The notes under the pieces are model-generated. The model worked only from the letters and a program-made list of their open reading frames with translations. It was not told the origin of the DNA and ran no database searches. The position numbers and the translations under genes are program-made. Below, one piece after another: positions 25,164-45,941 of a stretch of DNA of 64,000 nucleotides. Position 1 is the stretch's first letter. Each line of letters starts with the position of its first letter. This DNA is from Occultella kanbiaonis (GTDB lineage Bacteria > Actinomycetota > Actinomycetes > Actinomycetales > Beutenbergiaceae). The stretch is from contig NZ_CP046175.1 of NCBI RefSeq assembly GCF_009708215.1, forward strand, positions 744,001 through 808,000. The letters run 5' to 3'.

Positions 25164-26489
25164 ATGAGCGACGGCGGCACTGCCCGCACCGGGACCGTGG
25201 ACCAACGCGCGGCCGAGATCCTGCGTCGGGTATCGCCTCCGGTGTTCGCCGACCGCGTCCTGGAGGTCACCGCGTTCGGGGCCGTCGGGGACGGGGCGAG
25301 CGACTGCACGGCCGCGATCGCGGCGGCGATATCGGCCTGTTCGAGGGCCGGCGGTGGGCGCGTGCTGGTGCCGGCCGGGAGGTTCCGGACCGGCCCCGTG
25401 CACCTGCTCGACGACGTCGAACTGCACCTGGCCGCCGGTGCGGTGCTGGCGTTCAGCCAGGAGTCCGCCGACTACCTGCCGGCGGTCCGCACCCGGTATG
25501 AGGGCGTGGACTGCTTCAACTATTCTCCGTTCCTCTACGCGATCGGTCGACGGAACATCGCCGTGACCGGAAGCGGGGTGGTGGACGGCGGTGCCGACGA
25601 GCAGCACTGGTGGAACTGGGTCAAGGCGCCGGCACCGCACGAGGGCCCTGCGAAGCAACGTCTCCTGGCCGCGGCGGCCGCCGGGGTGCCGATGGCGGAG
25701 CGGGTGTTCGGGGTGGGGGACCACCTGCGCCCGAACCTGCTCCAGTTCGTCGATTGCCAGAACGTACTCGTCTCGGGTGTCACGTTCCGCCGTTCGCCGA
25801 TGTGGACCATCCATCCGCTCCGGTGCACGAACGTCACGATCCGCGGCGTCGTGGTGGACAGCCACGGACCGAACAACGACGGGTGCAACCCGGAGTCCTC
25901 GCGCGACGTGCTGATCGAGGACTGCACGTTCGATACCGGTGACGACTGCATCGCGATCAAGGCCGGCAAGGGGCCCGACGGGTGGCAGGCGGGGGAGTCC
26001 ACGGCCGGCGTGGTGATCCGGGACTGTCGGATGCGGGCCGGTCACGGCGGCGTCACCGTGGGTAGCGAGACCAGTGGGGGCATCTCGGACGTGGTGGCCT
26101 ACCGCTGCCGGATGTCCAGCCCGGACCTGGGCCGTGCCCTTCGGATCAAGTCCAATCCCGAGCGCGGCGGCCACATCCGGGACATCCTGTTCGCGGACAT
26201 CGAGGTCGGTGAGGTCCGCCAGGCCGTGCTCGAGGTGGCCCTGGACTACGGCCGGGTGACGGCGGGTGGGCACCCTCCGTACGTCTGCGACATCGAGGTG
26301 CTCAGGGTCACCGCCGAGGCCGCCGGATGCGCCGTTCGGCTGATCGGGCTGCCGGACGCACCGATCCGTCGGCTACGTCTGCGGGACTGCTCGTTCGAGC
26401 GGCTCGCCGGCCCGGACGTCGTCCGCCACGTGGTCGACGCCGACCTCGGCCCCGGCCGCGGTGAACCGGAGCAACTGCCACAGCGGTAG
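25164..26489 (+). CDS. GH28 polygalacturonase-family hydrolase, cytoplasmic
   Basis: 441 residues forming a right-handed beta-helix. The inverting catalytic set is visible: Asp239 in PNNDGCNPES, Asp260-Asp261 in TGDDCIAIK, His294 in GHGGVTVGSE and Arg327-Ile-Lys329 in LRIKSN. The N-terminus (VTAFGAVGDGASDCTAAI) is the normal GH28 opening and there is no signal peptide. The subgroup is exo-acting galacturonidases that strip galacturonic acid or rhamnogalacturonide from oligomers. ATG at 25164 follows GAGAGGACG. The last 117 bases overlap the convergent gene at 26373. Confidence 0.92.
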   Translation: MSDGGTARTGTVDQRAAEILRRVSPPVFADRVLEVTAFGAVGDGASDCTAAIAAAISACSRAGGGRVLVPAGRFRTGPVHLLDDVELHLAAGAVLAFSQESADYLPAVRTRYEGVDCFNYSPFLYAIGRRNIAVTGSGVVDGGADEQHWWNWVKAPAPHEGPAKQRLLAAAAAGVPMAERVFGVGDHLRPNLLQFVDCQNVLVSGVTFRRSPMWTIHPLRCTNVTIRGVVVDSHGPNNDGCNPESSRDVLIEDCTFDTGDDCIAIKAGKGPDGWQAGESTAGVVIRDCRMRAGHGGVTVGSETSGGISDVVAYRCRMSSPDLGRALRIKSNPERGGHIRDILFADIEVGEVRQAVLEVALDYGRVTAGGHPPYVCDIEVLRVTAEAAGCAVRLIGLPDAPIRRLRLRDCSFERLAGPDVVRHVVDADLGPGRGEPEQLPQR

Positions 26490-28469
26490 CGCGATCACCC
26501 AGGACGGGTTCCAGGTGTTGCTGTGCCCGCGGTCCTGCCAGTTGGTGACGAAGAACGCCTCCCCCTGCTCGCCGACCACGTCGAAGCCCCACTCCCCGGG
26601 AGCGGTGCACACCCCCTGGCCCATCGTTGCCATGATCGTCCGGGCCCATCGCTGCAGCCCGACGTCACCGGTGAGCCGACCCAACCGCCACAGGTCGAAA
26701 CTGGGGAAGAACACGTCCAGATGGTGGTTCTGCACGCTCACGCCGGGCCAGCCGATCGCACTGAAACCGGCATCGCGCAGCGGCGCCCCACGGTCGTGCT
26801 GCGGATTCCAGTGATAGACCCAGCTGAGCAGCCAGTCGGCCACCACCCGGGCGCGCCCGAGGTACCGGTCGTCGCCGGTCAGGTCGTACAACGTCATCAG
26901 GAGTTCGAAGTAGCCCATCCCGCCCTCCTTGTCCTCGCACGCGGCGTCGAGGGTGGAGTGCGCGAACGGCCGGTCGAAGGTGCGGGCATGGAGCACGTGG
27001 TAGGCATCGGCAAGGTCGACCGCACGTGTCAGCAGGTCCGGACGTGCGCAGGCCTCGGCGGCCAGGGCAGCAGCCCGGACCGCGGGGATGCCGGCCGACC
27101 AGGGCGCGTCCGGGAGCGGTCGGCCGTCGGCGGTCCAGCCGATCGGCACCAGCCCCGAGGGGGTGGTCGTCGCGGTGACGAACTCGGCGGCCTCCGTCAG
27201 GGCCGTCGTCCAGCCGGGCGGCACCGGTGCCCCGTGGTGGCGTAGCAGCGAGATCAGTTCGGCGAGGTCCGCCATGGTCTCGCCGTGCGCGCGGGCGGAG
27301 ACGATCTCGCGGCCCCGGCAGCGCAGCCCCTGCCAGCGCCGGTCGTCGTGGACATAGGAGTTGTACCGCAGTCCCGGTACGCCGGTGTCGGATCCGCTCA
27401 GATAGAACTCGACGGCGGCACGTGCGCGCTCGAGCCGGTGCGGCTCGCCCCGCTCCAGACCGACGCGGGCGTCGCACCACGCCAGGCGTAGGCACTGCCC
27501 GGTCCAGCCGTAGAGGAAGTCCGTGACCGCGCGGCCCGGCCTCGACCGCGGTTCGCCCCAGGCCGGGAACTTGAGGTAGCCGGCCACCGGGCCGTCCGCG
27601 AACGCCCGCGCATCCAGTGCGGCGACCCGCAGGTCGAGATGACGGCGATCGTCCAGGGGGCCGCCGAGGGTGCGCTCGCCACCGCCGAACAGGTCCCGGC
27701 CGATCCGGACCAGCTCGCGGAACCCGTGTCCCGGTGCGGTCCGTCCGCGGACGACGACGAACCGTTGGTGCAGCGAGTCCCCGGGCGCCAGGTCCCGGTA
27801 CCCGGCCGTGGTGGCGGCGGTGCGAGCCTTGTGCACGTAGGTGACGTCCGGCTCGCCGTCGAACAGGGTGACGCCGCTCAGGCCGAGCGCGTGGGTGTCG
27901 TCGCCGCTCACCACGCCCAGCGAGCCGTACCGCACCCGACCCTGCGTGTCCTCGTCCGGGTCGGGGAGCGAGACCAGGGTCAGGGACTCGCCGTGTTCGT
28001 CCTGCAGGCAGACGGCCGGGATCGGTAGCCGGTGCACCTCGGTGACGAACCCGCCCCTGCTCACGTGCGGCACCACGCGGTCGGGGTCCGCCGAGGGGTT
28101 GTCGTGGTGGATCACCTGCGGGATCGTGACCCGGGCCCGGGCAGGTCCGCTCAGCCGCAGCCCGACCACCAGGTCGACGATGGGGGACCCGGTGTCGTTG
28201 CGCCAGTGCAGGTCGAGCTCGAGTCCGCGCTCACCCGGCCGGGCGAACACCTGGACCCGGAGCGGTCCCACGGATCCCTCCACGAGTACGGCGCCGCCGC
28301 TGGGGCGCACCTCGGCACCGGTCAGCCCCGGGACGCACGTCCGCCACGGTCGCCCCGTGGACACCACGAGCATCCGGTCCAGCAGGTCGGTCCAGTCCGG
28401 TAGCTCGTCGTGCTCCGCTCCGCCGGTGACGTACCTGACCAGGTCGGGTCCGCTCGGGCCCTCGCTCAC
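26373..28469 (-). CDS. Unrecognised helical-barrel protein of the pectin cluster
   Basis: 698 residues from GTG at 28469, which overlaps the sialidase-like stop in a GTGA. I do not recognise the family. The first ~260 residues look like a beta-sandwich (ARVTIPQVIHHDNPSADPDRVV, LTLVSLPDPDED). The remainder looks like an (alpha/alpha)6 toroid, with FLYGWTGQCLRLAWCDA, PGLRYNSYVHDDR, CEDKEGGMGYFELLMTLYDLTGDDRYL, VYHWNPQHDRGAPL and GWPGVSVQNHHLDVFFPSFDLWRLG. The aromatic and acidic conserved-looking stretches (EDKEGGMGY, QNHHLDVFF) suggest a sugar cleft. There is no signal peptide. By position it is probably a glycosidase or lyase for a pectic fragment. The 3' end overlaps GH28 antisense by 117 bases. 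Confidence 0.8.
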   Translation of the reverse strand: MSEGPSGPDLVRYVTGGAEHDELPDWTDLLDRMLVVSTGRPWRTCVPGLTGAEVRPSGGAVLVEGSVGPLRVQVFARPGERGLELDLHWRNDTGSPIVDLVVGLRLSGPARARVTIPQVIHHDNPSADPDRVVPHVSRGGFVTEVHRLPIPAVCLQDEHGESLTLVSLPDPDEDTQGRVRYGSLGVVSGDDTHALGLSGVTLFDGEPDVTYVHKARTAATTAGYRDLAPGDSLHQRFVVVRGRTAPGHGFRELVRIGRDLFGGGERTLGGPLDDRRHLDLRVAALDARAFADGPVAGYLKFPAWGEPRSRPGRAVTDFLYGWTGQCLRLAWCDARVGLERGEPHRLERARAAVEFYLSGSDTGVPGLRYNSYVHDDRRWQGLRCRGREIVSARAHGETMADLAELISLLRHHGAPVPPGWTTALTEAAEFVTATTTPSGLVPIGWTADGRPLPDAPWSAGIPAVRAAALAAEACARPDLLTRAVDLADAYHVLHARTFDRPFAHSTLDAACEDKEGGMGYFELLMTLYDLTGDDRYLGRARVVADWLLSWVYHWNPQHDRGAPLRDAGFSAIGWPGVSVQNHHLDVFFPSFDLWRLGRLTGDVGLQRWARTIMATMGQGVCTAPGEWGFDVVGEQGEAFFVTNWQDRGHSNTWNPSWVIALPLWQLLRFTAAGAEVGVDHVADDVRAGEPLERAVPQT

Positions 28470-29572
28470 GTCGCGTCCCCCGTGGTGTCCAGGGCCAGGC
28501 CCCCCTCCTGCTCCCCAGCGATCCAGTCGGGCTCGAGTCGGACGTGCTTGATGGTCTTGCGGAGGTAGGAGTAGGCGACCTGGAGGGCGCCGTCCGACGT
28601 CTGGATCATCGCTGGGTAGGAGTAGCCCACCGGGGCGTCCTTGTACTCGATGTCCGCCACCTGGAGGTTGCGCTGGAGCGGCCAGGTCCGACCGCCGTCC
28701 TCGGAGACCGCGAGCGTGAGCGGTGTGCGGACCGCCTTCTTCCGCCAGCCGTCCCCGGACGGCACGAACCGGAACTGGTCGCGTTCCATCGTGGCGTCGT
28801 TGAAGACGGCAGCGAGCCGGCCGTCGGCCAGGGCGATGTGGTGCAGCGCCGAGTTGTTGTTCGCAAGGGCCGTGCGCACCGGGGGCGTCCACGTGCGGCC
28901 AAGGTCGGTGGACTCGGAGGAGTAGGCCCGGTCGGCGGCGCGTGAGCGGAACAGACCGAGCAGGCCGCCGTCGGGCCTGGGCGCGATGCTCATCTGCACC
29001 CGGTGCCGGCTGCCCGGGACCTCGACCACCTGCCAACTGTGTCCGTCGTCGGTGCTGCGGGCGACGACGCTGTACTCGCCTCCGGCGTCCACCTGGTAGG
29101 CCGGTAGCAGCCAGGTGCCGTCGGGCAGGAAGAGCGGTGGGTTGCGGAGGAAGAAGCCTGGCCCGGCGAACAGCGTCCGTGGGTCGGACCACGTGAGCCC
29201 GTCCTCCGAGGTGCGTACCAGGACGTGTGCGTCCGTGCGGTCGTGTGGTGTGTTCGAGGTGTGCAGCAGCCAGATCCGGCCGTCGGGCGCCCGGAACAGC
29301 ACCGGGTTCTGCTCGGACCGGTCCGGGTCGGCGGCGATCAGGACCGGCCGGGACCACTCGTCCGTGCCCGCCGCCAGGCGCGCGAGCACGACGTTCGTCT
29401 CGCGGTCACCCTCCTGGGGTCCGTTGAACCAGGCGCAGAGCAGGTCGCCCCCGCTCGTCTCGGCCAGGGTCGCGGCGTGGCTGTCCACATCGTGCAGTAC
29501 CGGCAGGAGAGCCTCCCGCAGTCGCGGGTCGGTCGCTGACGGCGTGAGTCGTCCGGTCAGTCGCGGGTCCAT
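28466..29572 (-). CDS. Asp-box sialidase-like protein (BNR family), possible Dha/Kdo hydrolase
   Basis: 368 residues forming a six-bladed beta-propeller. Four Asp boxes are visible: SEDGLTWSD, STDDGHSWQ, STDLGRTWTP and SEDGGRTWPL. The entry HDVDSHAATLAETSGGDLLCAWFNG and AMIQTSDGALQVAYSYLR are typical of the bacterial BNR_2 group. There is no signal peptide, and no FRIP motif of classical sialidases was seen. Known GH33 relatives in rhamnogalacturonan-II degraders cleave the 2-keto-3-deoxy acid Dha rather than sialic acid. The pectic surroundings, and an aldolase gene 9 kb away, favour such a substrate (inference). It is linked to the Opp-type transporter operon, 55 bases downstream. Confidence 0.8.
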   Translation of the reverse strand: MDPRLTGRLTPSATDPRLREALLPVLHDVDSHAATLAETSGGDLLCAWFNGPQEGDRETNVVLARLAAGTDEWSRPVLIAADPDRSEQNPVLFRAPDGRIWLLHTSNTPHDRTDAHVLVRTSEDGLTWSDPRTLFAGPGFFLRNPPLFLPDGTWLLPAYQVDAGGEYSVVARSTDDGHSWQVVEVPGSRHRVQMSIAPRPDGGLLGLFRSRAADRAYSSESTDLGRTWTPPVRTALANNNSALHHIALADGRLAAVFNDATMERDQFRFVPSGDGWRKKAVRTPLTLAVSEDGGRTWPLQRNLQVADIEYKDAPVGYSYPAMIQTSDGALQVAYSYLRKTIKHVRLEPDWIAGEQEGGLALDTTGDAT

Positions 29573-29627
29573 CGCAGTCCTTCGGTGATCGTCGTGTCAT
29601 CGGTCGGGACAACTCTCAGGAGGCACC

Positions 29628-30697
29628 TCATGCGGCACCGAGGTCCTCGATCCCGCGCAGCCCGAGCTCCTCGCTGAAGTGGCAGGCCACGCGGCGCTCC
29701 GGCGCGACCTCCCGCAGCGACGGCACCTCGGTCTCACACCTGTCCTGCGCGTACGCGCACCGGGTGCGGAACGGGCAGCCGGACGGGACGTCAGAGGGAT
29801 CGGCCACCTCGCCCCTGAGCACGATCCGCTCCCTGCGCTTGGCCGCGTTCGGGTCGGGGTTGGGGACGGCCGAGAGCAGGGCCTCGGTGTAGGGGTGGTG
29901 CGGCCGGCGGTACAGCTCAGCCGTGGGCCCGGTCTCCACGACGTGACCGACGTACATCACCACGACCTCGTCGGCCATGTACTCGACCATGCCGAGATCG
30001 TGGGAGATGAACAGGTAGGTCAGGTTCTCGTCGGTCTGGAGGTCCCTCATCAGGTTCAGGATCTGGGCGCGCACCGAGACGTCGAGAGCGCTCACCGCCT
30101 CGTCGGCGACCACCAGCCGTGGGTCGAGGGCGAGCGCCCGCGCCAGGCCCACCCGCTGCCGCTCGCCCCCGCTGAAGGCGTTCGGGTAGCGGCGCAGGTA
30201 CTCGGGGCGCAGGCCCACCCGGGTCAGCAGCGCGGCCACCCGGTCCTCGACCTCCGACTCCTTGACGACCTTGTTGACGCGCAGTGGCTCGCCGACGATC
30301 TCCGCGAGGGTCATCCGCGGGTTCAGGGAGGAGAACGGGTCCTGGAACACCATCCTGATGTCCGGGCGGTAGGGCTTCAACTGACGTTCGGTGAGCGGTG
30401 CGAGGTCGACCACCCTGCCGTCGGCGCGCCGGTAGAGGATCTCACCGGAGGTTGGTTCGTGCGCGCGCAGGATGCACCGGCCCAGCGTGCTCTTCCCGCA
30501 CCCGGACTCACCGACCAGCCCCACGGTCTGTCCCTGCTTGATCTGCAGGTCCACCCGGTCCACGGCCTTGACGTGGCCGGAGGTTCGGCCCCACATGCCC
30601 TTCGTGATCGGGAAGTACTTGCTCAGCTGCCGGGTCTCGAGGAGCACGTCTGACGTGTCCGGCCCGGCGGTCTCGCTGACAACGTCGGTGTCCTGGC

Positions 30698-30701
<4 letters not shown>
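29628..30701 (-). CDS. Oligopeptide/oligosaccharide ABC transporter ATPase, DppF/OppF type
   Basis: 357 residues from ATG at 30701, preceded by GGAGGAC; its start overlaps the OppD-type stop by ATGA. Walker A is GESGCGKST, the signature is AFSGGERQRVGLARAL, Walker B is LVVADE and the switch His follows in LFISHDLG. The C-terminal CPFRTRCAYAQDRCE cysteine motif is specific to the Opp/Dpp class. It drives uptake with the adjacent OppD/B/C. In this pectin context the cargo is more likely an oligosaccharide than a peptide; Opp-type systems for plant oligosaccharides are known. Confidence 0.93.
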
Positions 30702-31817
<1,116 letters not shown>

Positions 31818-31840
<23 letters not shown>

Positions 31841-33080
31841 CACGCAATCCATCTCCGACGAAGTTCATGGCCAGGACAGTGACGAAGATCGCGAGCCCGG
31901 GCAACAGGAGCCACGGTGCCGTCTCGATCGTTCGGATGTTCTGCGCGTCCTGGAGGAGCACACCCCAGCTGACGGCGGGCGCTTGGAGACCGAGCCCGAG
32001 GAAGCTCAGCGAGGTCTCGGCAAGGATCATTCCTGGTACGGCCATGGTGAGCGAGGCGATCACGTGGCTCGAGAACGACGGCACCATGTGGCGGAAGATG
32101 ATCCGCGGTCTACTGCAGCCATCCAGCGATGCGGCCGTGATGAAGTCCTCCTCCCGCAGGGAGAGGAATTTCCCTCTGACCTGTCTGGCCATACCGGTCC
32201 AGCCGATCACCGACAGGATCGCGGTGATCGCGAAATAGCGAGCTGTTGGGCCCCAGGACGCCGGGATCGCAGCCGAGAGTGCGAGCCACAGGGGCAGGGT
32301 CGGGATCGCCATCAGGAACTCGATGATCCGCTGGATCAGCGTGTCCGGCTTACCTCCGTAGTAGCCCGAGATGCCGCCGAGCGCGATGCCGAGGATCAGG
32401 CTGATGGCCACGCCGACCAGCCCGATCGACAACGACACCCGGGAGCCGTACAGGATGCGGCTCAGTGAGTCACGCCCGGCCCGGTCCGCGCCCCACAGGT
32501 AGAAGGGCTGGTCCGGGTCCTCGGGCCCGATGAGGTGCACATCCATCGGGAAGACGCCCCACAGCTCATAGGGCTCGCCCCGGACGAAGAACCCGACCGG
32601 GATGTGGCTGTCCTCGTCGATCTCGAACTCGTTCGCGAACGTGTCCGGGTTCTGCGTCACCGTGAAGCCGTTGACATGGAGGCCGAAGCCCTCCGTCGGG
32701 TGGGAGATGTGCAGCGCCTGTGGCGGAGCGTACGCGAACTGGGCGTCCTGGGCCGTGGCGGTCGAGGGGGCCAGGAACTCGGCGAACGCCATCACGAGGT
32801 AGATGGCCAGGACGATCCAGATCGAGACGTACGCGACCTTGTGCCGGCGGAAGCGCCGCCAGACCAGACGCCACTGCGAGGCCGTTCCGCCCCTGGCCAG
32901 CGCAGCTCGGGCAAGCTCGGCTTCGGGGCCGGTGGGGTGGTCGGCGCCGGAGTCAGGGAGCGGGATCTCCATCCCCTCCTGGCTCATGATGGCACCCACG
33001 TCGGCCGGGTTCGGCTCGTCCCACACGTCCGTTGCCGTGCTGGACGTCCCGGTGACCGGACTATCTGTCCTCTCCGTCAT
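31818..33080 (-). CDS. ABC transporter permease, OppC type
   Basis: 420 residues. A long acidic N-terminal tail (~68 residues) precedes helix 1 (VAYVSIWIVLAIYLVMAF). A large extracytoplasmic insert (~95-190, with YELWGVFPMDVHLIG) is followed by WGADRAGRDSLSRILYGSRVSL, the conserved OppC entry to the core. The EAA-like loop is ITAASLDGCSRPRIIFRHMVP. The C-terminus is NFVGDGLRDAADPYK. The enlarged outer loop is typical of this subgroup in actinobacterial and Thermotoga-like sugar-type Opp systems. It starts three bases after the OppB stop. Confidence 0.92.
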
Positions 33081-33083
33081 GGT

Positions 33084-34082: not shown

Positions 34083-34449
34083 ACCAAGCTCCCTTCAGTG
34101 GCGTCGGTGCGCAGCGGGCGCAGGCTCGTCCGACCAGGACGGCGGATTTCGCACTGCTGGTGCCGTGCGGCGGACGCGTCGTCCTCGGTCGTGCGGAGCC
34201 TTGCCCGCGTCGTCGAGCGTTTCCGCTCGACCCGGGGCGCCCCCGGCGGCTGGTCTGGCACGACCAGACATCGCGGGACTCGGTTGTGGGGAAATCCACC
34301 AGATGCAGCGCTTCATTGGGCTCCTTGCATATCTACCCACATGCTCGTGAACATGCGGCTTCGTGATGCTAACCCGTGATCGGGGTCACTGGCAACGGCT
34401 AGAGCCCGGTTTCCTCGTTATGCGGCATTTTGGTGGCATCCCGGATGAT

Positions 34450-34465: not shown

Positions 34466-34504
34466 GCAATCCATGCTTCGCCGAGGTTCATCTCGGACGA
34501 TGGC

Positions 34505-37590: not shown

Positions 37591-38330
37591 CGCGCGAAGC
37601 CACCGCCAACAGTGGGCTGCGGGCGGGACAGGAACACGATCGTCTGATCACGGACCCGGAGGATGTGCGACTCGAGTGCGGCGCGCGCCGCCGCACCGTC
37701 ACCGGCATCGAGGGCCTCGACGATCTCGCGGTGCTCGGCGACGGCGGCGTCCAGCCGTTCCCGATTCATCGGCGCCTCCATCCCGGCGCGGGTGACGTGG
37801 ATGCTCAGGTGTAGATCGTCATGCAGGGCGATCAGCCGAGGGAAGCCGGACATCTCCACGAGCGTGCGATGGAACCTGCTGTCGTTCTCGCGGAACGCGA
37901 TGTACTGCGCAGGCTCCTGCAGTGCGGCCTCGGCGAGCTCACCCGCCTCGGCCACCAGGTCGTGCAGGATCCTCGGCGCGGGCGGCGCCTCCTGCTCGGT
38001 GTACCGGCGCAGGCTGTGCGACTCGATCATCACGCGAAGCTCGAACAGTTCGTACAACGAGGAGAGGGAGGGGACGGCGACGGTGAAGCCCGCGGTGGAG
38101 TCGTAGGAGAGCAGACCGCGCTCGTGCAGGCGCCCCACCGCGCTCCGGACGGGGGTCCTGCTCATGCCGAGCTTGCGCGCGAACTCTCGGATCGGCACCG
38201 TCTGGCCCGGCTGCGGGTGCTCCTCGGTCAGCCAGCTCACCAGTGCGTCGTGGGCACGGTTCTCCAGCGTCGCCTGGCTCACCTGCTCCGAGGCCAGTGT
38301 CCCTGTCGTTGATGCCATGGACGTAGTCAC
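37587..38330 (-). CDS. GntR-family transcriptional regulator (FCD class)
   Basis: 247 residues from GTG at 38330, with GGGAGG six bases upstream; an in-frame ATG at 38318 is the alternative. The winged helix-turn-helix is at ~28-85 (VPIREFARKLGMSRTPVRSAVGRLHERGLL). The C-terminal FCD domain has the helical pattern FRENDSRFHRTLVEMSG and AVAEHREIVEALDAGD, whose Asp and His residues bind a metal and a sugar acid. It is divergent from the aldolase gene and is the first gene of the alpha/beta hydrolase-GH127 operon, so it probably controls both and itself. Confidence 0.92.
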   Translation of the reverse strand: MTTSMASTTGTLASEQVSQATLENRAHDALVSWLTEEHPQPGQTVPIREFARKLGMSRTPVRSAVGRLHERGLLSYDSTAGFTVAVPSLSSLYELFELRVMIESHSLRRYTEQEAPPAPRILHDLVAEAGELAEAALQEPAQYIAFRENDSRFHRTLVEMSGFPRLIALHDDLHLSIHVTRAGMEAPMNRERLDAAVAEHREIVEALDAGDGAAARAALESHILRVRDQTIVFLSRPQPTVGGGFAR

Positions 38331-38390
38331 GCAGTCCTCCCATCCGCATCGGTCGTCGATGCGCTCGAGCCCGCTCGCTGTGGTCTGCCC

Positions 38391-38402
38391 ATGGTATGCC
38401 AT
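38391..38402. promoter_or_regulatory. Palindromic element in the GntR/aldolase divergent region
   Basis: ATGGTATGCCAT has ATGG/CCAT arms and lies 61 bases upstream of the GntR start. It shares the ATGCCA half-site with the 38508 palindrome and may be a second site for the same regulator. Confidence 0.4.
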
Positions 38403-38471
38403 CCGCGCGTCGAAGGTGGGACTCTTCGGTTCCTCATCGGCGCCACTTGCGTCATGGACCGTCGCTCGGTC

Positions 38472-38520
38472 TTGACAACGTCCCGGTTGTGCCCGAAGGA
38501 TGCCTACATGCCACTGGCAT
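38472..38520 (+). promoter_or_regulatory. Aldolase promoter with palindrome over the start codon
   Basis: TTGACA at 38472-38477 is a perfect -35. AAGGAT, 18 bases later, is a weak -10 that doubles as the ribosome site. ATGCCA-C-TGGCAT (38508-38520) is a perfect inverted repeat that begins on the aldolase ATG. A repressor bound there would block start or elongation. Confidence 0.5.
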
Positions 38521-39482
38521 TCACACCTACGAACCAAGCGTCCATCAATCAACTGCACGGCGTGCTCCCGCCGGTTGTGCTCCCGATGACCCCCGACGGC
38601 GAGATCGACTCGGCGTCGCTGGAGTCGCACGTCGGCCACCTCGTGGCCGCCGGGGTGCACGGACTGTGGGCCAACGGCACCACCGGCGAGTTCTACGCGC
38701 TGGACGGCGAGGGACGGGCCGAGGTGGTACGCCTGTGCGCCAAGGCCGCAGCGGGACGTGTCCCCGTCGTGGCGCACGTGGGGGACACCTCCACCAGCCT
38801 CGCCGTGCGGCACGCCCGGGAGGCGCTCGCCGCCGGTGCCGCGATGGTCTCGGTCCTCCCGCCGTACTTCGTCGGGTTCGACCAGGACGAGTTGAAGCGG
38901 CACTTTCGCGCGCTCGCCCACGCCGTCGACGGCCCGGTCGTCGCCTACCACCTGCCCCAGTTCATCCCCGCCACGCTCTCGATCGACTCGATCGTCGAGC
39001 TCGCCACCGACGGTGTCCTCTGTGGTGCGAAGGACAGCAGCTCGAACATGGTCTGGTTCCGCCGGCTGCAGCGTCGCCTGCGTGATGCCGGGACCTCGCT
39101 GCCCTGCCTGACCGGAGGGTCCAGTGTGGCCGACCTCGGCTACCTGCTCGGCGCCGTCGGATCGGTCTCCTCGACCGGGAACCTGACCCCACGTCATCTG
39201 GTTCGCCAGTACGAGGCCGCACGGGATGGCGACTGGGACCTCGTTCTGGCACTGCAGGAGCAGAGCGAGGAACTCATCGAGCTGTTGGCCCCACCGGGAA
39301 GGATCGCGGCCCCCGGCCTGACCAACACCGTCTACAAACACCTGCTCGCCGCACTGGGGCGCATCGACTCCGGTCACAGCGCCGCGCCGCAGACCCAGCT
39401 GCCGGCCGAGGACCGCCGGTACCTGGACGAGCACGTGCTGCCGGTCATCGGTCGTCTGGAGAGTGCTGGCGACCACAGCTGA
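38508..39482 (+). CDS. DHDPS/NAL-family class I aldolase or dehydratase
   Basis: 324 residues forming a TIM barrel of the dihydrodipicolinate synthase / N-acetylneuraminate lyase superfamily. The Schiff-base Lys is Lys175 in GAKDSS and the conserved Tyr is Tyr147 in VAYHLPQF. The substrate-carboxylate loop is NGTTGEF. The lysine-biosynthesis enzyme would not be placed among pectin genes or controlled by a GntR, so a catabolic role on a 2-keto-3-deoxy sugar acid, releasing pyruvate, is likely. Candidate substrates are KDG, Kdo or Dha from rhamnogalacturonan. The start at 38508 is supported by AAGGA seven bases upstream. Confidence 0.88.
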   Translation: MPLAFTPTNQASINQLHGVLPPVVLPMTPDGEIDSASLESHVGHLVAAGVHGLWANGTTGEFYALDGEGRAEVVRLCAKAAAGRVPVVAHVGDTSTSLAVRHAREALAAGAAMVSVLPPYFVGFDQDELKRHFRALAHAVDGPVVAYHLPQFIPATLSIDSIVELATDGVLCGAKDSSSNMVWFRRLQRRLRDAGTSLPCLTGGSSVADLGYLLGAVGSVSSTGNLTPRHLVRQYEAARDGDWDLVLALQEQSEELIELLAPPGRIAAPGLTNTVYKHLLAALGRIDSGHSAAPQTQLPAEDRRYLDEHVLPVIGRLESAGDHS

Positions 39483-39531
39483 ACCGGCTCCTGCCAGCTG
39501 GCGTATCACCCCAAGGATGAGGAGAACAACG

Positions 39532-41550
39532 ATGTTTCCAAGAACCACTCCGGAGTTGACCGCCCGTGATCGACTCTGGTCGAGCGTGGTCAGTCGCCGC
39601 TCACTGCTGCTGACCGGCGGCGGTCTGGCCGCCGTCACCGCGCTGGCCGGCTGTTCCTTCTTCGAGACCGACCCTGCCCAGGGCGTCGACGACGGCGCCG
39701 GTGCCGGCCCGAAGGGCAAGGAGGCGCCGTCGCTGGCGGCACAGGTGGAGGCCGGGGAGCTACCACCGGTCGAGGAGCGGCTCCCGAGCACTCCGCTGGT
39801 GGTCGAGCCGTTGAACCAGGTCGGCCGGTACGGCGGGACCTGGCGGTCGGCGATGATCACGGAGGAGGATCGCACCTGGCTGGAACAGTCGATCGGATAT
39901 GAACCCTTGGTGCGGTGGATCCCAGGATGGACGGGCCAGCCCGGGACCAGCGAGATCATCGCGAACGTGTGCGAGGTCTACGAGGAGCTCGACGGCGGCC
40001 GGGTCTTCCAGTTCACGCTGCGCGAGGGGATGAAGTGGTCGGACGGCGAGCCGCTCACGGACGAGGACTTCCGGTTCGCCTTCGAGGACGTGAACATCTA
40101 CCCGGCCCTGCACCCCGGCGGGATCTACTCGCTCTGGACGAACGTGAACGACCCGGCCAAGCCGGGCACCTTCGAGAGTGACGGCGCGGTCATCCGGTAT
40201 GTCTTCGACGAACCCAAGCCGGGATTCCTCGAGGAGCTGGCCTCCGGCACCATGATGGTCCTGCCCAGGCACTACTTCGAGCAGTTCCACGAGAAGTACA
40301 ACACCGAGATCGCCGACCTGGTCGCGCAGGCGAACCTCGACGACTGGGTGCAGCTGTGGGAGTCCAAGCTCGAGCCGTTCTCCAACGTGGACGCGCCGAG
40401 CCTGCATGCGTGGCGGCTGACCGCCGCCCTCGGCGACGGCAGTTACGTCACCGCGGAACGGAACCCGTACTACTGGAAGGTCGATCCCGACGGGAGCCAG
40501 CTGCCCTACCTCGACGAGATCCGCTGCGAGATCCTGCAGGACATCGAGGTCGAACTGTTGAAGATCACCAACGGTGAACTCGACCTGCAGATGCGCAACT
40601 TCGACACGATCCGCAACCTCCCGGTGGTCACGGACAACCAGGAGAGCGGCGACTACCGGATGTTCAGCCTCTCGCCGCAGGGCCCGAACGCCATGGTGCT
40701 CGGCTTCAACCAGACCCTTGAGGACGAGCGCAAGCGGGCGATCTACTCCAACAAGGACTTCCGGGTGGGCCTGTCCCACGCGATCAACAGGCAGCGCATC
40801 ATCGACACGATCTACGCCGGGCAGACCACTCCCTGGCAATGCGCGCCGGTCGAGGGGCATCCCGCGTACGACGAGGAGTTCGGCACCCAGTTCACCGAGT
40901 ACTCGGTCGAGCTCGCGAACGAGGCCCTCGACCGGGCCGGCTACACGGAGACGGACGCGAACGGCATCCGGCTCAGCGAGGGGGCGCCGATCAGCATCAC
41001 CGTGCTGGTGCCCTCGTCGATGCCCGATCATCTCGACGCGTTCGAACTGATCAAGCAGGACTGGGCGGCGGTCGGTGTGGAGGCCAACGTCACGCCCCTG
41101 GCCGAGACCCTCTACTGGGAGCGGGTGGAGGCGAACCAGGCCGAGGTGTCCACCTGGACCGCTGGCGGGTTCGAGATCCGCGCCACCCAGGGATCGAACC
41201 ACTACTTCGTGCCGTCCAACCCGCGCGGTTCCTCCCGCTACGGTCACACGTGGGCGCTGTGGTACCGGGGCGAGACCGATGAGGCGCCGCCCGCGATCAT
41301 CCAGGAGCAGCTCGCGCTGTTCGACGAGATGCGCACCACCTATGACGCGGACGAGGCGATCGAACTGGCGCGTCAGGTCCTGGAGATCGCGAAGGACCAG
41401 TTCTTCTACATCGGCATCTGCACGCAGCCCAACGGCTACGGCATCGTGAGGAACGACATGGAGACGAACGTGCCGGACGCGATGCCGGGAGACGTCGGAT
41501 ACCAGCCACCCGGCCCGTCCAACCCGGAGCAGTACTTCTTCACCGCCTAG
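39532..41550 (+). CDS. ABC transporter substrate-binding lipoprotein, family 5 (Opp/Dpp type)
   Basis: 672 residues from ATG at 39532 with GAGGAG upstream. The twin-arginine signal SRRSLLLTGG leads to lipobox ALAGC with Cys41. The mature protein has family-5 hallmarks: FTLREGMKWSDGEPLTDEDF, YYWKVDPDGSQLPYLDEI, and DFRVGLSHAINRQRIIDTIY. It is larger than peptide-binding members and resembles those for plant oligosaccharides. It is the natural partner of the OppBCDF genes, although it lies 5 kb away behind the aldolase. A GCCAGCTGGC palindrome (39493-39502) precedes it. Confidence 0.93.
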   Translation: MFPRTTPELTARDRLWSSVVSRRSLLLTGGGLAAVTALAGCSFFETDPAQGVDDGAGAGPKGKEAPSLAAQVEAGELPPVEERLPSTPLVVEPLNQVGRYGGTWRSAMITEEDRTWLEQSIGYEPLVRWIPGWTGQPGTSEIIANVCEVYEELDGGRVFQFTLREGMKWSDGEPLTDEDFRFAFEDVNIYPALHPGGIYSLWTNVNDPAKPGTFESDGAVIRYVFDEPKPGFLEELASGTMMVLPRHYFEQFHEKYNTEIADLVAQANLDDWVQLWESKLEPFSNVDAPSLHAWRLTAALGDGSYVTAERNPYYWKVDPDGSQLPYLDEIRCEILQDIEVELLKITNGELDLQMRNFDTIRNLPVVTDNQESGDYRMFSLSPQGPNAMVLGFNQTLEDERKRAIYSNKDFRVGLSHAINRQRIIDTIYAGQTTPWQCAPVEGHPAYDEEFGTQFTEYSVELANEALDRAGYTETDANGIRLSEGAPISITVLVPSSMPDHLDAFELIKQDWAAVGVEANVTPLAETLYWERVEANQAEVSTWTAGGFEIRATQGSNHYFVPSNPRGSSRYGHTWALWYRGETDEAPPAIIQEQLALFDEMRTTYDADEAIELARQVLEIAKDQFFYIGICTQPNGYGIVRNDMETNVPDAMPGDVGYQPPGPSNPEQYFFTA

Positions 41551-41589
41551 TCCCGGCGGCCCAGGCAGCCGGTCCCGGGCTCTCGATGC

Positions 41590-41629
41590 CCGACGGCGTC
41601 GCGCACCTGATCGTGCGCGGCGCCGTCGG
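41590..41629. terminator. Terminator between binding protein and PdxA-family gene
   Basis: The 17-base arms (41590-41606, 41613-41629) pair with a single G-T wobble around a 6-base loop. They lie in the 127-bp gap between convergent genes. Confidence 0.8.
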
Positions 41630-41677
41630 CGTTCGTGCGGGTGGGCCGTGCCGCGTGCTCCGCACGCGGGGCGCGCG

Positions 41678-42706
41678 TCAGACCGTGCGGCTCGGCGGGT
41701 GCCCCGCCAGCGCGGCTGCCTGCCGCAGCGCCTCGGCCATGCTGGCGGTGGTGACCTGGCCGGTACCGGCGATGTCGAACGCGGTGCCGTGGTCGACGGA
41801 CGTCCGGATCACCGGCAGGCCGACGGTGATGTTCACGCCGTCGTCGATGCCGAGCACCTTCACCGGGCCGTGTCCCTGGTCGTGGTACATGGCCACGATG
41901 AGGTCGAAGTCACCGCGGCTGGCCAGGAAGAACGCCGTGTCGGCCGGTAGTGGCCCGTGCACGTCGTGGCCGAGGGCGAGGAGTTCGTCGATCGCCGGCT
42001 GGATCTTCTCGGCCTCCTCGCCGTAGCCGAACAGCCCGTCCTCACCGGCGTGCGGATTGATGGCGCACACGCCCACCCGAGGGCGGGCCACGCCGGCGCG
42101 CTGGAGCGCCTCGATCCCGCGGGCGACCGTGCGGTGCACCAGCGGCGGGTCGATGCGTGCGATCGCGTCGATCAGGCCGATGTGGGTCGTCACGTGGATG
42201 ACCCGTAGCCGTGGGGTGCTCAGCATCATCGAGACCTCGGGTACCCCGGTCAGGTGCGCGAGCAGCTCCGTGTGGCCGGGGAAACGATGGCCGGCGGCGT
42301 GCAACGCCGCCTTGTTCAGGGGTGCGGTCGCGATGGCCGCCACGTCATGGGTCACGGCGTAGCCGGCGGCCCGCTCGATGTAGGTGTACGCGGCGTGTCC
42401 GGCGATCGGGCTGACCGCCCCGAACGGCAGATCCTCCGGGAGTGCACCCACCTGGATCACGTCGACGCGGGTCGCTCCCGGATCCGCCTCCGCCGGATGG
42501 TGTACCTCGCGAATGGTCGCCGGCACGCCCATGAGCATCGCCGCCCGGGCCATCCGTGGCACGTCGCCGATCAGGACGGGCCGGCACACGGCCAGGACCT
42601 CCGGGTCGGTCAGTGCCGCGGCACAGATCTCCGGGCCGACGCCTGCGGGGTCTCCCATCGTCACGCCGATGACGGGACGGGAGGGCGTTCGATCGGTGGG
42701 CTCCAT
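41678..42706 (-). CDS. PdxA-family 4-phosphate dehydrogenase (PdxA2-like, probable 4-phospho-D-threonate dehydrogenase)
   Basis: 342 residues. Family motifs: GVTMGDPAGVGPEI at the N-terminus, CAINPHAGEDGLFGYGEE with the metal-binding His, MYHDQGHGPVKVLGID, and INITVGLP-like NITVGLPVIRTSVDHGTAFDIAGTG. True PdxA makes vitamin B6. The PdxA2 branch instead oxidises 4-phospho-D-threonate (or erythronate) to a 3-keto acid that loses CO2 to give DHAP. Its neighbour is a DUF1537 kinase, the known PdxA2 partner, so the catabolic role is preferred. It lies 35 bases downstream of the kinase gene. Confidence 0.88.
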   Translation of the reverse strand: MEPTDRTPSRPVIGVTMGDPAGVGPEICAAALTDPEVLAVCRPVLIGDVPRMARAAMLMGVPATIREVHHPAEADPGATRVDVIQVGALPEDLPFGAVSPIAGHAAYTYIERAAGYAVTHDVAAIATAPLNKAALHAAGHRFPGHTELLAHLTGVPEVSMMLSTPRLRVIHVTTHIGLIDAIARIDPPLVHRTVARGIEALQRAGVARPRVGVCAINPHAGEDGLFGYGEEAEKIQPAIDELLALGHDVHGPLPADTAFFLASRGDFDLIVAMYHDQGHGPVKVLGIDDGVNITVGLPVIRTSVDHGTAFDIAGTGQVTTASMAEALRQAAALAGHPPSRTV

Positions 42707-42741
42707 GATGGGCTCCCTCTCAGGGATCGCGGTCGGAGTGG

Positions 42742-43986
42742 TCAGGGCAGGGGCAGGAGGCGGGTGGGCTCGAGGAGGTCGAGGAGGTCGCTCGGCCCGC
42801 CGTAGCTGCCCGGCTTGGTCCAGATGGTGCGGCCGTCCGGTGCGTACAGCTGGGCGACTGTCTCGACGGCGGAGGGTGTCGTTCGGAGGTCACGTAGCCC
42901 TAGCTGCTCCAGGACCAGGCGTGCGGTGTGGCCACCGCTGAGGAACAGTCCGACCTCGGGTGGGGCACCGGCCAGTGTCGCCGCGCACGCGGCGGCCAAC
43001 GAGGCCATGCCGGCGCGGTCGCGCCGTGCGGCGGCGCCCGCTGCGGTGCTGGGGAGAGTGAGGACGACATGCTCGCCACGCGCGAGCCCGGCACGAGCGC
43101 GGTGGACGGCCGCCGCAACCGCGTCCCGGTCGGTGCCCTCGGTAGGCAGGACGATCTGCGTGACGGGGTCGCGCGAGCTGAGGGCCTCGACCTGGACGCG
43201 GCTGATCGGCTCGCCGGTGCCGAGCACGGCAAGCAGTGATCGCACGGTGACCGGCCCGGTCGCGCCGAGGCCGGGCGCGGCCGTTCCTGGAGCCTTCGGC
43301 GGGTGACCGGCAGGTGCCGTCGAGGTTGCGACCGGCGTCCCGGCATCGGCCTCCGGCTCGCTCGGTGTTCGCGCGAGGGCTCCCAGGAACGCGGCTGATC
43401 CGGCGAAGACCGCCCGCGGGTGCCCGACGCAGGCGGCAGCGAGTCGATCGAGGTCCGCCGTGGTCGAGACGTCCGCCGTCAGCAGGATCGGGTCGGGGCC
43501 GGACAGGAGCCCCGGGAGCTCGTCGTACTCGGCGCGACCGAGGTGGCGGTGGGCCAGGCCGGACCCGAGCTCGGTGAGGGTGACCGGCTCGGTTGCGGCG
43601 TCGTCGGCGTCGCCGTGCCGGCCGGCGACCGTCAACCGACCGAGGGCCGGGTTGGCGGGGCAGAGCACCACCGGCCGTCCGGACGTCAGCAAGGCGGCGA
43701 GATAGGCCCGCACCGGGCCGCGCAGTCGCGAGTCGAGCTTCAGGAACGGGGTTGCGACCGGGGTCGGCCCGGCCAGCAGTGCGGTCACGGCGTCACGTGC
43801 GGCGGTGTCGTCGTGGTGTCGTACGTCGAGGTCCCAGACGGTGTCGGCGTCCATGCCCTCGGGCGGCGGCGACGCCCCGGGTCGACCGAGGCGGACGTGC
43901 ACGTCCCGACCCGTGCTGGCCTGCCAGAGCCGGGCGAACTCGGCCGCGCCGGTGAGGTCGTCTGCCCAGACGTGTGCGGGCCTCAC
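42742..43986 (-). CDS. DUF1537 acid-sugar kinase, DtnK-like by context
   Basis: 414 residues from GTG at 43986, overlapping the DeoR stop. The N-terminal lobe starts VWADDLTGAAEFARLW, with DSRLRGPVRAYLAALL. The C-terminal nucleotide lobe has GLFLSGGHTARLVLEQLG and IWTKPGSYGGPSDLLDLLE. It differs clearly from the DUF1537 kinase at 20852, which pairs with the RuBisCO-like protein. Coupled to a PdxA homologue it fits D-threonate 4-kinase, giving the substrate for the next gene. Other C4 acid sugars such as L-threonate or D-erythronate remain possible. Confidence 0.85.
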   Translation of the reverse strand: MRPAHVWADDLTGAAEFARLWQASTGRDVHVRLGRPGASPPPEGMDADTVWDLDVRHHDDTAARDAVTALLAGPTPVATPFLKLDSRLRGPVRAYLAALLTSGRPVVLCPANPALGRLTVAGRHGDADDAATEPVTLTELGSGLAHRHLGRAEYDELPGLLSGPDPILLTADVSTTADLDRLAAACVGHPRAVFAGSAAFLGALARTPSEPEADAGTPVATSTAPAGHPPKAPGTAAPGLGATGPVTVRSLLAVLGTGEPISRVQVEALSSRDPVTQIVLPTEGTDRDAVAAAVHRARAGLARGEHVVLTLPSTAAGAAARRDRAGMASLAAACAATLAGAPPEVGLFLSGGHTARLVLEQLGLRDLRTTPSAVETVAQLYAPDGRTIWTKPGSYGGPSDLLDLLEPTRLLPLP

Positions 43987-44771
43987 CCCTGGACCCGCTC
44001 CGCGGCGGCCGCGATGACGACGTCCCGGCCGGTGGCCCGGAAGACCTCCAGGAAGTCCGGGTCAGCGCCGTCGTCGGTGACGAGCGTCCACGGCCCGTCG
44101 ATCCGGGCCCAGCTGTTGAACGGTGCCTGACCGAGCTTCGCCGAGTGCGCGAGCACGTAGATCCGACGGGACCGGCGGGCCATCAGCTCCTTGAGGCGAG
44201 TCTGGTCGAGTTCGGCCTCGCAGATGGACCCGTCGGCGGCGACCCCGTCGGTGCCGAGGAACAGGCGGTCGAAGGTGAGCCGTTCGAGGGCCAGCTCCGT
44301 GAGCGGCCCGACGAAGGCTGCCGAGAGTTCGCGAAGCCGGCCGCCGAGGCAGGTCAGCGCGAGTTCGGGTCGGGACCGCAGCAGGTTGATCACGGGCACA
44401 CTGGCGGTGGTCACGCTGACGCCCTCGAGCGCGGGCAGTCGCCGGGCGAGGAGGGCGACCGTGGACCCGGCGTCGAGGAGGATCGACTCGCCCGGCTGAA
44501 CCTGCTCGGCGGCCCACCGTGCGATCGCCGACTTGGCGTCGAAGCTCTCGTGCTCGCGCTGGAGCAGGGACGTCTCCGTGTGCTCGCCGGGCGGGATGGC
44601 CCCACCGTAGGTTCGGGCCAGTTGGCCGGACCGGCTCAACTGGGCGAGGTCGCGCCGGATCGTCGAGGCGGTGACCCGGAAGCGGGCCGCGAGGTCCTCC
44701 ACGCTGGCGAGGCCCATCTCGGAGGCGCGCTCGAGGATCTCCTCGCGGCGCCGCTCCGCCTTGCTGACCAT
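43983..44771 (-). CDS. DeoR/GlpR-family transcriptional regulator
   Basis: 262 residues. The helix-turn-helix at ~18-55 carries SVEDLAARFRVTASTIRRDLAQLSRSG, the family signature, followed by RTYGGAIPP. The C-terminal isomerase-like effector domain has ILLDAGSTVALLARRL and LFLGTDGVAADGSICEAEL. It heads the kinase-PdxA operon and is divergent from the aldo/keto reductase gene. The paired direct repeats at 44836-44872, and a matching pair before GH28, are its probable sites. The effector would be a phosphorylated acid sugar (family precedent). Confidence 0.93.
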   Translation of the reverse strand: MVSKAERRREEILERASEMGLASVEDLAARFRVTASTIRRDLAQLSRSGQLARTYGGAIPPGEHTETSLLQREHESFDAKSAIARWAAEQVQPGESILLDAGSTVALLARRLPALEGVSVTTASVPVINLLRSRPELALTCLGGRLRELSAAFVGPLTELALERLTFDRLFLGTDGVAADGSICEAELDQTRLKELMARRSRRIYVLAHSAKLGQAPFNSWARIDGPWTLVTDDGADPDFLEVFRATGRDVVIAAAAERVQG

Positions 44772-44835
44772 CGCTGTCTCCCTCGTCGTCGCAGCCCGGA
44801 GCCGTCACGGTGTGCGGCACATCCTATCCCGCCTC

Positions 44836-44872
44836 TGCGCGTTTCGTGCTATTTTGACTGCGCGTTCTGCGC
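44836..44872 (+). promoter_or_regulatory. Direct-repeat operator, DeoR-type (site B)
   Basis: TGCGCGTTTCGTGC (44836-44849) and TGCGCGTTCTGCGC (44859-44872) are direct repeats 23 bases apart. TATTTT (44850-44855) between them could be a -10 for rightward transcription. It lies between the DeoR gene and the reductase genes and matches site A at 25042. Confidence 0.65.
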
Positions 44873-44896
44873 GCAATGATCTCCGATGGAGGACTC

Positions 44897-45001
44897 ATGG
44901 ATGAACTGTCGTACGACTCGAGACTGCGACGCGGGAGTTCTTCCGCTGGGTGGAGCCGGGGGTTCGGGGCCTCGACCCACCCTGTTGCCGGCGATGTCTG
45001 A
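44897..45001 (+). CDS. 34-codon leader ORF coupled to the aldo/keto reductase
   Basis: ATG at 44897 follows GGAGG at the correct distance, the best ribosome site in this region. The 34-residue product (MDELSYDSRLRRG...) resembles nothing known and ends at a TGA that overlaps the reductase start in ATGTCTGA. The reductase has no ribosome site of its own, so translation may be coupled. It could also simply be the transcript leader. Confidence 0.4.
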   Translation: MDELSYDSRLRRGSSSAGWSRGFGASTHPVAGDV

Positions 45002-45941
45002 ACCCGTGACGGTGCGGCTGGTCCTTGGCACGATGTCCTTCGGGGACACCGTCGCGGAAGCCACGGCCGCCCGGATCATCGAGACCGCGGTCGAGGCCGG
45101 GGTCGTCGAGCTGGACACGGCGAACACCTACGCAGGCGGCGTGAGTGAGCTCATCATCGGTCGCACCCTCGGGCGCCTGCCCGAACGGATCGCGGTGTCC
45201 TCGAAGGTCGGCATGCAACCCGGTCGGGGCGCCGGGCCGCTGGCGCATGAGGCGGTCGTCGCTGCGGCTCGCAACAGCGTCGAGCGACTGGGCCGACCGC
45301 TGGACACGCTGTACCTGCACCAGCCGGACCGCAGCACCCCGCTGACGGAGACCATCGGTGGCGTGTCCGAGGTGCTCGAACGCGGGTTGGCGGGGCGCTT
45401 CGGCCTCTCGAACCACTCCGCGTGGGAGACGGTCGAGATCAACGAGCTCTGCCGTCGGCAGCAGGTGGTGGTGCCACAGCGTGCCCAGCAGCTCTACAAC
45501 GCGTTGGCGCGGCGACTCGAGGTCGAGTTCCTCCCGTTCGCTGCGGCTCGTGGCGTGGAGACGGTGGTCTACAACCCGCTCGCGGGCGGGCTGCTCACCG
45601 GGCGGCACACGATCACCGAGGAGCCGGCGGACGGACGATTCGGCTCGTCCGCCCTGGCCACGATGTACCGCCGGCGGTACTGGAGCCGGGAACGGTTCCA
45701 GGTGATCGACGCGCTGCGCACGATCGCCGACGGTGCCGGGGTCACGTTGACCGAGCTGGCCCTGCGGTGGCTGCTCGGAGCTCCCGGGGTTGCGGCGATC
45801 CTCATCGGCGGGTCCACGCCGGAACAGATCCGCGCAAACGTCGCCGCGCTCGGGCGGGGACCGCTCGACGAGGACCTGCAGGAACGCATGAACGTCGCCA
45901 CGGCGCCGCTCCTGACGGACGCGCCGCACTACGCACGATGA
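44994..45941 (+). CDS. Aldo/keto reductase of the DeoR locus
   Basis: 315 residues from ATG at 44994. The barrel motifs are ELDTANTYAGGVSE (catalytic Asp and Tyr), VSSKVGM (Lys), YLHQPDRSTP (His), VYNPLAGGLLTGRH and the cofactor segment VAAILIGGSTPEQIRANV. The start is set by homology (VTVRLVLGTMSFG opens the first strand). Translation is probably coupled to the short ORF that ends on its start. It is divergent from DeoR-kinase-PdxA and should share their inducer, so it probably handles a C4 aldehyde acid or an acid-sugar precursor. Confidence 0.87.
   Translation: MSEPVTVRLVLGTMSFGDTVAEATAARIIETAVEAGVVELDTANTYAGGVSELIIGRTLGRLPERIAVSSKVGMQPGRGAGPLAHEAVVAAARNSVERLGRPLDTLYLHQPDRSTPLTETIGGVSEVLERGLAGRFGLSNHSAWETVEINELCRRQQVVVPQRAQQLYNALARRLEVEFLPFAAARGVETVVYNPLAGGLLTGRHTITEEPADGRFGSSALATMYRRRYWSRERFQVIDALRTIADGAGVTLTELALRWLLGAPGVAAILIGGSTPEQIRANVAALGRGPLDEDLQERMNVATAPLLTDAPHYAR

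Follow-up and report, generated by a model that had tools for sequence, protein, structure and literature searches.

In bacteria that degrade sialic acid, a NanH sialidase, a NanA lyase, a transporter and a YhcH/NanQ anomerase make up the catabolic system. A second system, the arrangement for D-threonate, reportedly consists of a kinase and a PdxA homologue and lacks the isomerase and the decarboxylase on which the routes for L-threonate and D-erythronate depend. An excerpt of PMC7954711 cites D-threonate catabolism by DtnK and PdxA2 to Zhang et al. 2016. Here we describe a set of genes of Occultella kanbiaonis (Actinomycetota, family Beutenbergiaceae) that resembles both systems and probably encodes a catabolic pathway for the pectin sugar Dha (3-deoxy-D-lyxo-heptulosarate), proceeding through fragment import, release of Dha, and successive aldolase, reductase, kinase and PdxA2 steps. 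The genes lie in the window, by which we mean the whole stretch of 64,000 nucleotides that was analysed (bases 744001-808000 of the single 5.65 Mb contig NZ_CP046175.1; GC 71%).

To our knowledge, no breakdown route has been described for Dha after its release, and it is among the least understood of plant wall sugars. Its fate after release is reportedly not described for the rhamnogalacturonan II (RG-II) degradation loci of Bacteroides (Ndeh et al. 2017). Among the matches listed by searches of the openly licensed literature, no published pathway has the present gene set, in agreement with the original prediction, which had been made from the letters of the window alone. Dha is listed as an RG-II monomer in an excerpt of PMC6353982, and an excerpt of PMC12168206 places it in side chain D, confines it in plants to RG-II, assigns its sister sugar Kdo (3-deoxy-D-manno-octulosonate) to side chain C and describes sialic acid as absent from plants. 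Side chain D ends in beta-1,5-linked arabinofuranose, according to an excerpt of PMC12282258.

The five genes proposed to carry the pathway are the following.

28466-29572, minus strand: BNR_2 sialidase-like protein (Pfam BNR_2, 209.5 bits; no signal peptide seen by eye)
38508-39482, plus strand: DHDPS/NAL-family class I aldolase (Pfam DHDPS, 160.6 bits; open reading frame scanned, 38391-39482)
41678-42706, minus strand: PdxA family dehydrogenase/decarboxylase, proposed PdxA2 (Pfam PdxA, 333.1 bits)
42742-43986, minus strand: DUF1537 acid-sugar kinase, proposed D-threonate kinase (SBD_N 51.5 bits, NBD_C 45.2 bits)
44994-45941, plus strand: aldo/keto reductase (AKR), proposed D-threuronate reductase (Aldo_ket_red, 168.8 bits; open reading frame scanned, 44886-45941)

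All five are real genes, each with the expected Pfam family and with codon-position GC in agreement (5/5); together with the surrounding glycoside hydrolase (GH) genes, this confirms that the five families share one pectin island. In the scheme that we infer, which extends to the identity of the substrate, the order of the steps, the direction of the reductase, the hydrolysis of a glycoside by the BNR protein and all kinetics, an Opp-type transporter would import a Dha-containing fragment, from which the cytoplasmic sialidase-fold enzyme would free Dha, perhaps after a GH127 enzyme of the island had taken off the capping arabinofuranose. The aldolase would then cleave Dha to pyruvate and D-threuronate, and the AKR would reduce the aldehyde of the latter to give D-threonate; the DUF1537 kinase would phosphorylate C4 of D-threonate, and the PdxA2 homologue would oxidise C3 and decarboxylate the product to dihydroxyacetone phosphate and CO2.

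Fischer-projection book-keeping converts Dha, by retro-aldol cleavage and reduction, into D-threonate, so the stereochemistry first put forward was right; the same book-keeping leads from Kdo to D-arabinose. Were Kdo the substrate, the aldolase would yield pyruvate and D-arabinose, which would be oxidised or reduced and enter the kinase and PdxA as a C5 acid. This reading draws on the sialic-acid-like character of Kdo and its place in RG-II, and on the ability of NAL-type enzymes to cleave Kdo-like acids, but D-arabinose is not a C4 acid, D-arabinonate has no route through PdxA2 or DUF1537 that we know of, the annotated module tables examined (incomplete in PLSDB) hold no lactonase or erythrulose-phosphate isomerase, and one PdxA, discussed below, exceeds the D-threonate-4-phosphate dehydrogenase cut-off. 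We therefore consider Kdo a very improbable substrate.

The gene set is conserved well beyond the window. An orthologue of the aldolase occurs in 7 of the 24 genomes of the family, that of the window included, at 63-91% identity in 6 of the other 23; the closest named ones are from Occultella aeris (91%) and O. glacieicola (86%). Occultella and Ruania-type relatives keep the order GntR//aldolase-SBP, PdxA-kinase-DeoR//AKR, where SBP is a substrate-binding protein. The kinase, sought in 18 of the 24 genomes, is present in the seven that bear the aldolase and in two more (G047 and G077). In one of these, G047, the DHDPS orthologue is missing and the order is PdxA-kinase-DeoR//BNR-AKR-HpaI, followed by an MGH1-like glycosidase; its aldolase belongs to PF03328 (119.1 bits), the HpaI family of class II pyruvate aldolases. 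All eight family genomes with an orthologue of either aldolase have PdxA at 75% identity or more, a level reached among the other 16 only in G077, with a 49% homologue in G151 (Fisher p 1.2e-5, or 6e-5 when G151 is included; uncorrected for relatedness).

Two genomes from other families of the order carry the arrangement SBP-OppBCDF-AKR-HpaI-BNR//kinase-PdxA with DeoR. An HpaI profile search of 396 genomes of the order matched 61, with 20 at 352 bits or more and the next at 258; one locus was examined in each of the top 20 and in 23 of the other 41 (the G065 locus ends at a contig end). BNR, AKR, kinase and PdxA all lie within about 10 kb of HpaI in 15 of the 20 orthologous loci, spanning six family codes, and a DeoR match is found in 16 of the 20. 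None of the four partners occurs in the 23 lower-scoring control loci, eight of which have a weak DHDPS match (50-75 bits). Four actinobacterial HpaI loci hold kinase and PdxA in a single uninterrupted open reading frame, and one HpaI module has, by sequence reading, an MFS-like transporter and no Opp match. Natural kinase-PdxA fusions in one continuous frame were recorded at loci L181, L232, L242, L244 and L271.

The association recurs in three phyla. A tblastn search with one HpaI-module BNR protein as query matched 297 plasmid records, many of them close kin, chiefly from Rhizobium (128), Sinorhizobium (78), Pantoea (27) and Agrobacterium (17); we fetched 20, hand-picked for taxonomic spread from the best-hit and even-step listings, two being near-identical S. 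meliloti pSymB records. BNR, DHDPS, iron-type alcohol dehydrogenase (Fe-ADH), kinase and PdxA genes lie within about 10 kb in 18 of these 20 loci, from Rhizobium to Enterococcus. Methylobacterium nodulans and Azospirillum B510 share the order kinase-PdxA-FeADH-DHDPS-symporter-sialidase, then SDR; Rhizobium leguminosarum and Sinorhizobium meliloti modules have ABC transporters; and in Caballeronia kinase and PdxA form one annotated gene of 2307 bases. The Enterococcus raffinosus module is unannotated, with one internal TAG in its kinase match, and Qingshengfaniella yields a partial PdxA match.

These modules show what the system shares with sialic acid catabolism and where it departs from it. 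A sialidase-fold enzyme, a DHDPS-family aldolase and an SSS symporter are adjacent in several of them, and the Pantoea ananatis locus adds a member of the N-acetylneuraminate anomerase family (scored at 96.3 of 160 bits, with the subfamily cut-off passed), but the modules go on to a reductase, an acid-sugar kinase and PdxA rather than to N-acetylmannosamine kinase and epimerase. The five-part pathway is real as a conserved unit in which the enzymes of two steps, aldolase and reductase, are interchangeable. Conserved neighbourhoods with non-homologous aldolases and reductases strongly support the proposed logic of release, aldolase, reductase, kinase and PdxA2, and co-occurrence of the five families, which the original prediction had suggested checking, goes beyond chance. 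The larger claim of that prediction, a complete Dha pathway, is supported in part: it holds for the five-part unit, and Dha is the best candidate for a sugar that no sequence test used here tells apart from every other 2-keto-3-deoxy acid.

The aldolase step illustrates this interchangeability. The Schiff-base lysine (AKDSSS) and the tyrosine (YHLP) are conserved in all aligned DHDPS aldolases, 8 of the window type and 18 from plasmid modules, and by these residues the window enzyme is a member of the DHDPS/NAL superfamily. It scores under the curated NCBIfam cut-offs of four equivalogs: 127.5 of 281 bits for N-acetylneuraminate lyase, 111.2 of 206.15 for DapA, 92.2 of 373.95 for KdgD and 80.1 of 390 for archaeal 2-keto-3-deoxygluconate (KDG) aldolase. 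The plasmid-module DHDPS proteins compared are 26-30% identical to it. Descent of every class I module aldolase from one ancestor was rejected on a quick DHDPS tree, in which the window and plasmid groups are separate (69 of 105 rows, with every second OTH row; long branches come together, and similarity to the window had guided the choice of non-module rows), and the number of independent class I recruitments is not established. The swap between class I and class II aldolases is independent of that tree. The actinobacterial class II enzyme shares with HpaI and GarL both its family and its motif residues (D, H, R, E and D, conserved throughout the 15 module copies aligned, one copy occupying two of the 16 rows), but at about 145 bits it is far under the curated models, the best for the G047 copy being GarL at about 146 (cut-off 407) and HpaI at about 144 (cut-off 369). 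That both are named for dicarboxylate substrates argues for Dha. Outside the module, a common link of DHDPS with DUF1537 and PdxA was dismissed; among 73 distant DHDPS loci (L063-L135) Lucifera butyrica alone shows it, with a row of DUF1537 kinase, PdxA and DHDPS aldolase (L077:7539-10864) and no BNR match on the locus.

What weighs against the pathway is found in the scores of the kinase and PdxA, in the sialidase-like protein and in certain incomplete loci. Both DUF1537 halves of the window kinase exceed their Pfam cut-offs (51.5/25 and 45.2/28.3 bits), yet it scores 47.2 bits against the cut-off of 450 of the DtnK model NF047819, so that the name D-threonate kinase first given to it is borne out as to family and not as to DtnK identity. 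The PdxA2 assignment fares similarly, the family being right and the window copy falling short of the model for D-threonate-4-phosphate dehydrogenase (NF002891; 314.3 bits, cut-off 583). Four plasmid-module PdxA proteins were scored with the same model; that of P. ananatis passes at 666.3 bits and the other three reach 303-305. The system thus resembles DtnK/PdxA2 catabolism in its DUF1537 kinase and PdxA homologue, with one Pantoea PdxA over the curated cut-off, but differs in that its genes are coupled with those for a sialidase-like protein, a pyruvate aldolase and a reductase, and in that none of the module kinases scored reaches the DtnK cut-off. A role of the window PdxA in vitamin B6 synthesis by the route that depends on 1-deoxy-D-xylulose 5-phosphate was ruled out because PdxJ (PF03740) had no match in any of the 10 genomes searched, with the controls, E. 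coli included, giving a signal in 4 of 14. The aspartate, tyrosine, lysine and histidine of the AKR family are conserved in all 22 reductases aligned.

The BNR protein has the six-bladed sialidase fold and Asp-box/BNR repeats (PF13088, 209.5 bits against a cut-off of 31.4; PF02012, 22.1 bits, under its cut-off of 27). The RIP arginine of GH33 is found in none of the 41 module homologues aligned, which leaves the protein short of the three arginines, and by hand reading an invariant HA stands in its position. Arginines 143, 209, 211, 282 and 338 are invariant in all 41, R209 and R282 falling on arginines of solved sialidases in profile alignments. The arginine-triad test proposed at the outset thus had a mixed outcome, the first arginine being gone and others invariant. 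Profile alignment matches Y319, likewise invariant in 41 of 41, to the tyrosine of 9eob and to that of 4x6k, the latter within a segment of just 1.0 bit; in the single-sequence alignment to 4fj6, which is shifted, the variable residue 317 takes the tyrosine position, and the glutamate partner of the tyrosine is not evident in the single-sequence alignment to solved sialidases. The characterised Bacteroides Dha hydrolase is said to belong to GH143, which, with the missing arginine, makes it doubtful that GH33 relatives release Dha, as had been supposed. The founding member of GH143 is not among the PDB matches listed for the BNR protein, from which no exclusion follows.

We propose that the BNR protein is a cytoplasmic hydrolase that would free a 2-keto-3-deoxy acid from a glycoside. 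It might instead act as a lyase, lactonase or anomerase on an imported free acid; the loss of the RIP arginine would fit such a role, as would N-termini that show no signal peptide by eye and transporters of small-solute types, among them SSS symporters and the MFS-like protein, and we judge it unlikely on balance. A search of phage records matched one, MT836487.1, a 10 kb unannotated human-faeces "phage" record that may be bacterial, with a BNR relative (41.6% identity over 93% of the query) at 2239-3273.

Incomplete loci complete the contrary evidence. Three of the 20 HpaI orthologues have none of the four partners, another two are accompanied by kinase and PdxA but by neither BNR nor AKR, and two full loci (G135 and G121) have a distant kinase (52-59 bits) and PdxA (about 254 bits). 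The kinase-PdxA pair is not confined to the module: a phylum-wide kinase search gave 25 matches including that of the window, of which 18 were fetched as long loci and four more scanned as short ones, and in 16 of the 18 long loci the pair stands without BNR, two of the 16 having an HpaI homologue at 42-44%. In Pseudactinotalea terrae (G156) the set is split between separate contigs, GntR//aldolase-SBP-OppBCDF-BNR with the 26373-type protein on one and PdxA-kinase-DeoR//AKR on the other. Microlunatus speluncae has the aldolase/BNR half with no kinase match and a PdxA homologue of just 38% with a stop. Pantoea agglomerans misses the other four partners but has retained BNR together with a symporter, a YhcH-type and an SDR gene, and P. 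ananatis has no kinase nearby, a 59-position C-terminal kinase match abutting its PdxA. In P. ananatis JT8-6 (L270, near 5990-6165) such a D-threonate-kinase-like C-terminal match beside PdxA is probably a gene remnant.

The separated or missing halves in Pseudactinotalea and Microlunatus would suit unrelated genes that merely share a pectin island, with a KDG aldolase, a kinase and PdxA for another acid and a BNR protein for something else. The neighbourhood counts (15/20 against 0/23, and 18/20 on plasmids) speak against this, also in the form of a KDG aldolase beside an unrelated kinase, and make it exceedingly improbable. Outside the family, the order GH127, GntR//aldolase-SBP-OppBCDF-BNR is seen in Auraticoccus and Microlunatus, with esterase and pectin methylesterase (PME) homologues in between in Auraticoccus; a 5 kb contig of Desertihabitans carries esterase-PME-GntR//aldolase; and Auraticoccus and Desertihabitans both have PdxA at 66-67% and AKR beside a kinase match, that of Desertihabitans being a fragment at a contig end.

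Further features of the window, first those near the five genes and then those of the wider pectin-type island, are as follows.

26373-28469, minus strand: protein of no known family, probably a glycosidase (no Pfam or NCBIfam match)
29628-30803, minus strand: OppF-type ATPase (Pfam)
30698-31852, minus strand: OppD-type ATPase (Pfam)
31818-33080, minus strand: OppC-type permease (Pfam)
33084-34082, minus strand: OppB-type permease (Pfam)
34564-36489, minus strand: GH127 enzyme, the second in the island (Pfam GH127, 252.1 bits)
36499-37590, minus strand: alpha/beta-hydrolase-like protein, candidate esterase (GFSGGAW motif by eye; no Pfam match)
37587-38282, minus strand: GntR/FCD regulator, divergent from the aldolase (Pfam FCD and GntR)
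39463-41550, plus strand: SBP_bac_5 (family-5) binding protein of the Opp transporter (Pfam, 166.4 bits; 3' of the aldolase in relatives too)
43983-44771, minus strand: DeoR-family regulator adjoining kinase and PdxA (Pfam DeoRC)
1485: GH95
12250-21020: GH2, GH78 and the first GH127
20852-23514: OiaK-like DUF1537 kinase and OiaX-like RuBisCO-like protein (214.5/700 and 392.1/700 bits, below curated cut-offs)
between that pair and the five-gene region: pectinesterase-like gene, then GH28
47084: GH43, past the AKR

The position 26373, given at first as the start of the feature, was wrong, being the end of the separate gene at the head of this list. Its protein, whose gene shares 4 bases with the sialidase-like gene, is 66-88% identical in five relatives, near BNR in each, with an ACEDKEGG motif invariant in six aligned sequences; it may represent a new glycosidase family. 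The GntR/FCD regulator is 70-99% identical in relatives, and a homologue of the alpha/beta-hydrolase-like protein stands beside GntR in Auraticoccus and Desertihabitans. The GH127 of 34564-36489, also found on the GntR side of the aldolase in Auraticoccus and Microlunatus, is a candidate beta-L-arabinofuranosidase or aceric acid hydrolase. Its position beside the aldolase half would fit removal of the side-chain-D arabinose, a reading tempered by its best curated model, aceric acid hydrolase (357.7/950 bits, below cut-off). Streptomyces hyderabadensis (L131:367-3141) keeps the GntR (68%) and GH127 (55%) pair, with a DHDPS protein just 32% identical. The OiaK/OiaX-like pair was considered as a part of the pathway and discarded; it is a candidate branch of apiose-acid catabolism, probably a separate route, and is kept beside GH28 and PME in relatives. 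An iron-uptake cluster (49928-55276; FecCD-type permeases, ABC ATPase, periplasmic binding protein and siderophore-interacting protein) adjoins the island.

With GH95, GH127, GH78 and pectinesterase-type genes close to a candidate Dha hydrolase, the island resembles the Bacteroides RG-II loci, and this setting bears on whether the substrate could be another glycosidically bound 2-keto-3-deoxy acid with threo C5/C6, handled by the same logic: for example the Dha of algal scales, a C4 epimer or some plant or rhizosphere glycoside not yet described. By Fischer book-keeping, both C4 configurations of a 3-deoxy-heptulosarate lead to D-threonate, one plasmid module comes from an algal phycosphere isolate, and the HpaI-type modules are without homologues of the window GH2, GH78, GH127, GH28 and GH43 within about 10 kb. 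The window copy, by contrast, lies in an island with GH95, GH127, GH78, GH28 and the OiaK/OiaX-like pair, a GH78 gene is about 6 kb from the Alloyangia module, and plant Dha is confined to RG-II in the PMC12168206 excerpt; we accordingly regard another acid as an unlikely substrate. For Dha of RG-II, the evidence leaves us evenly poised on the full claim, namely a previously undescribed Dha pathway in Actinomycetota, Pseudomonadota and at least one member of Bacillota, which would draw its aldolase from two unrelated folds and its reductase from two unrelated families, supply D-threonate to DtnK/PdxA2 and rely on a sialidase-fold enzyme that lacks the RIP arginine.

If true, the pathway would give a function to the "exo-alpha-sialidase" genes of rhizobia and other plant bacteria (297 plasmid records match). 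It would also provide a natural origin for D-threonate and a marker for users of RG-II fragments in soil and rhizosphere.

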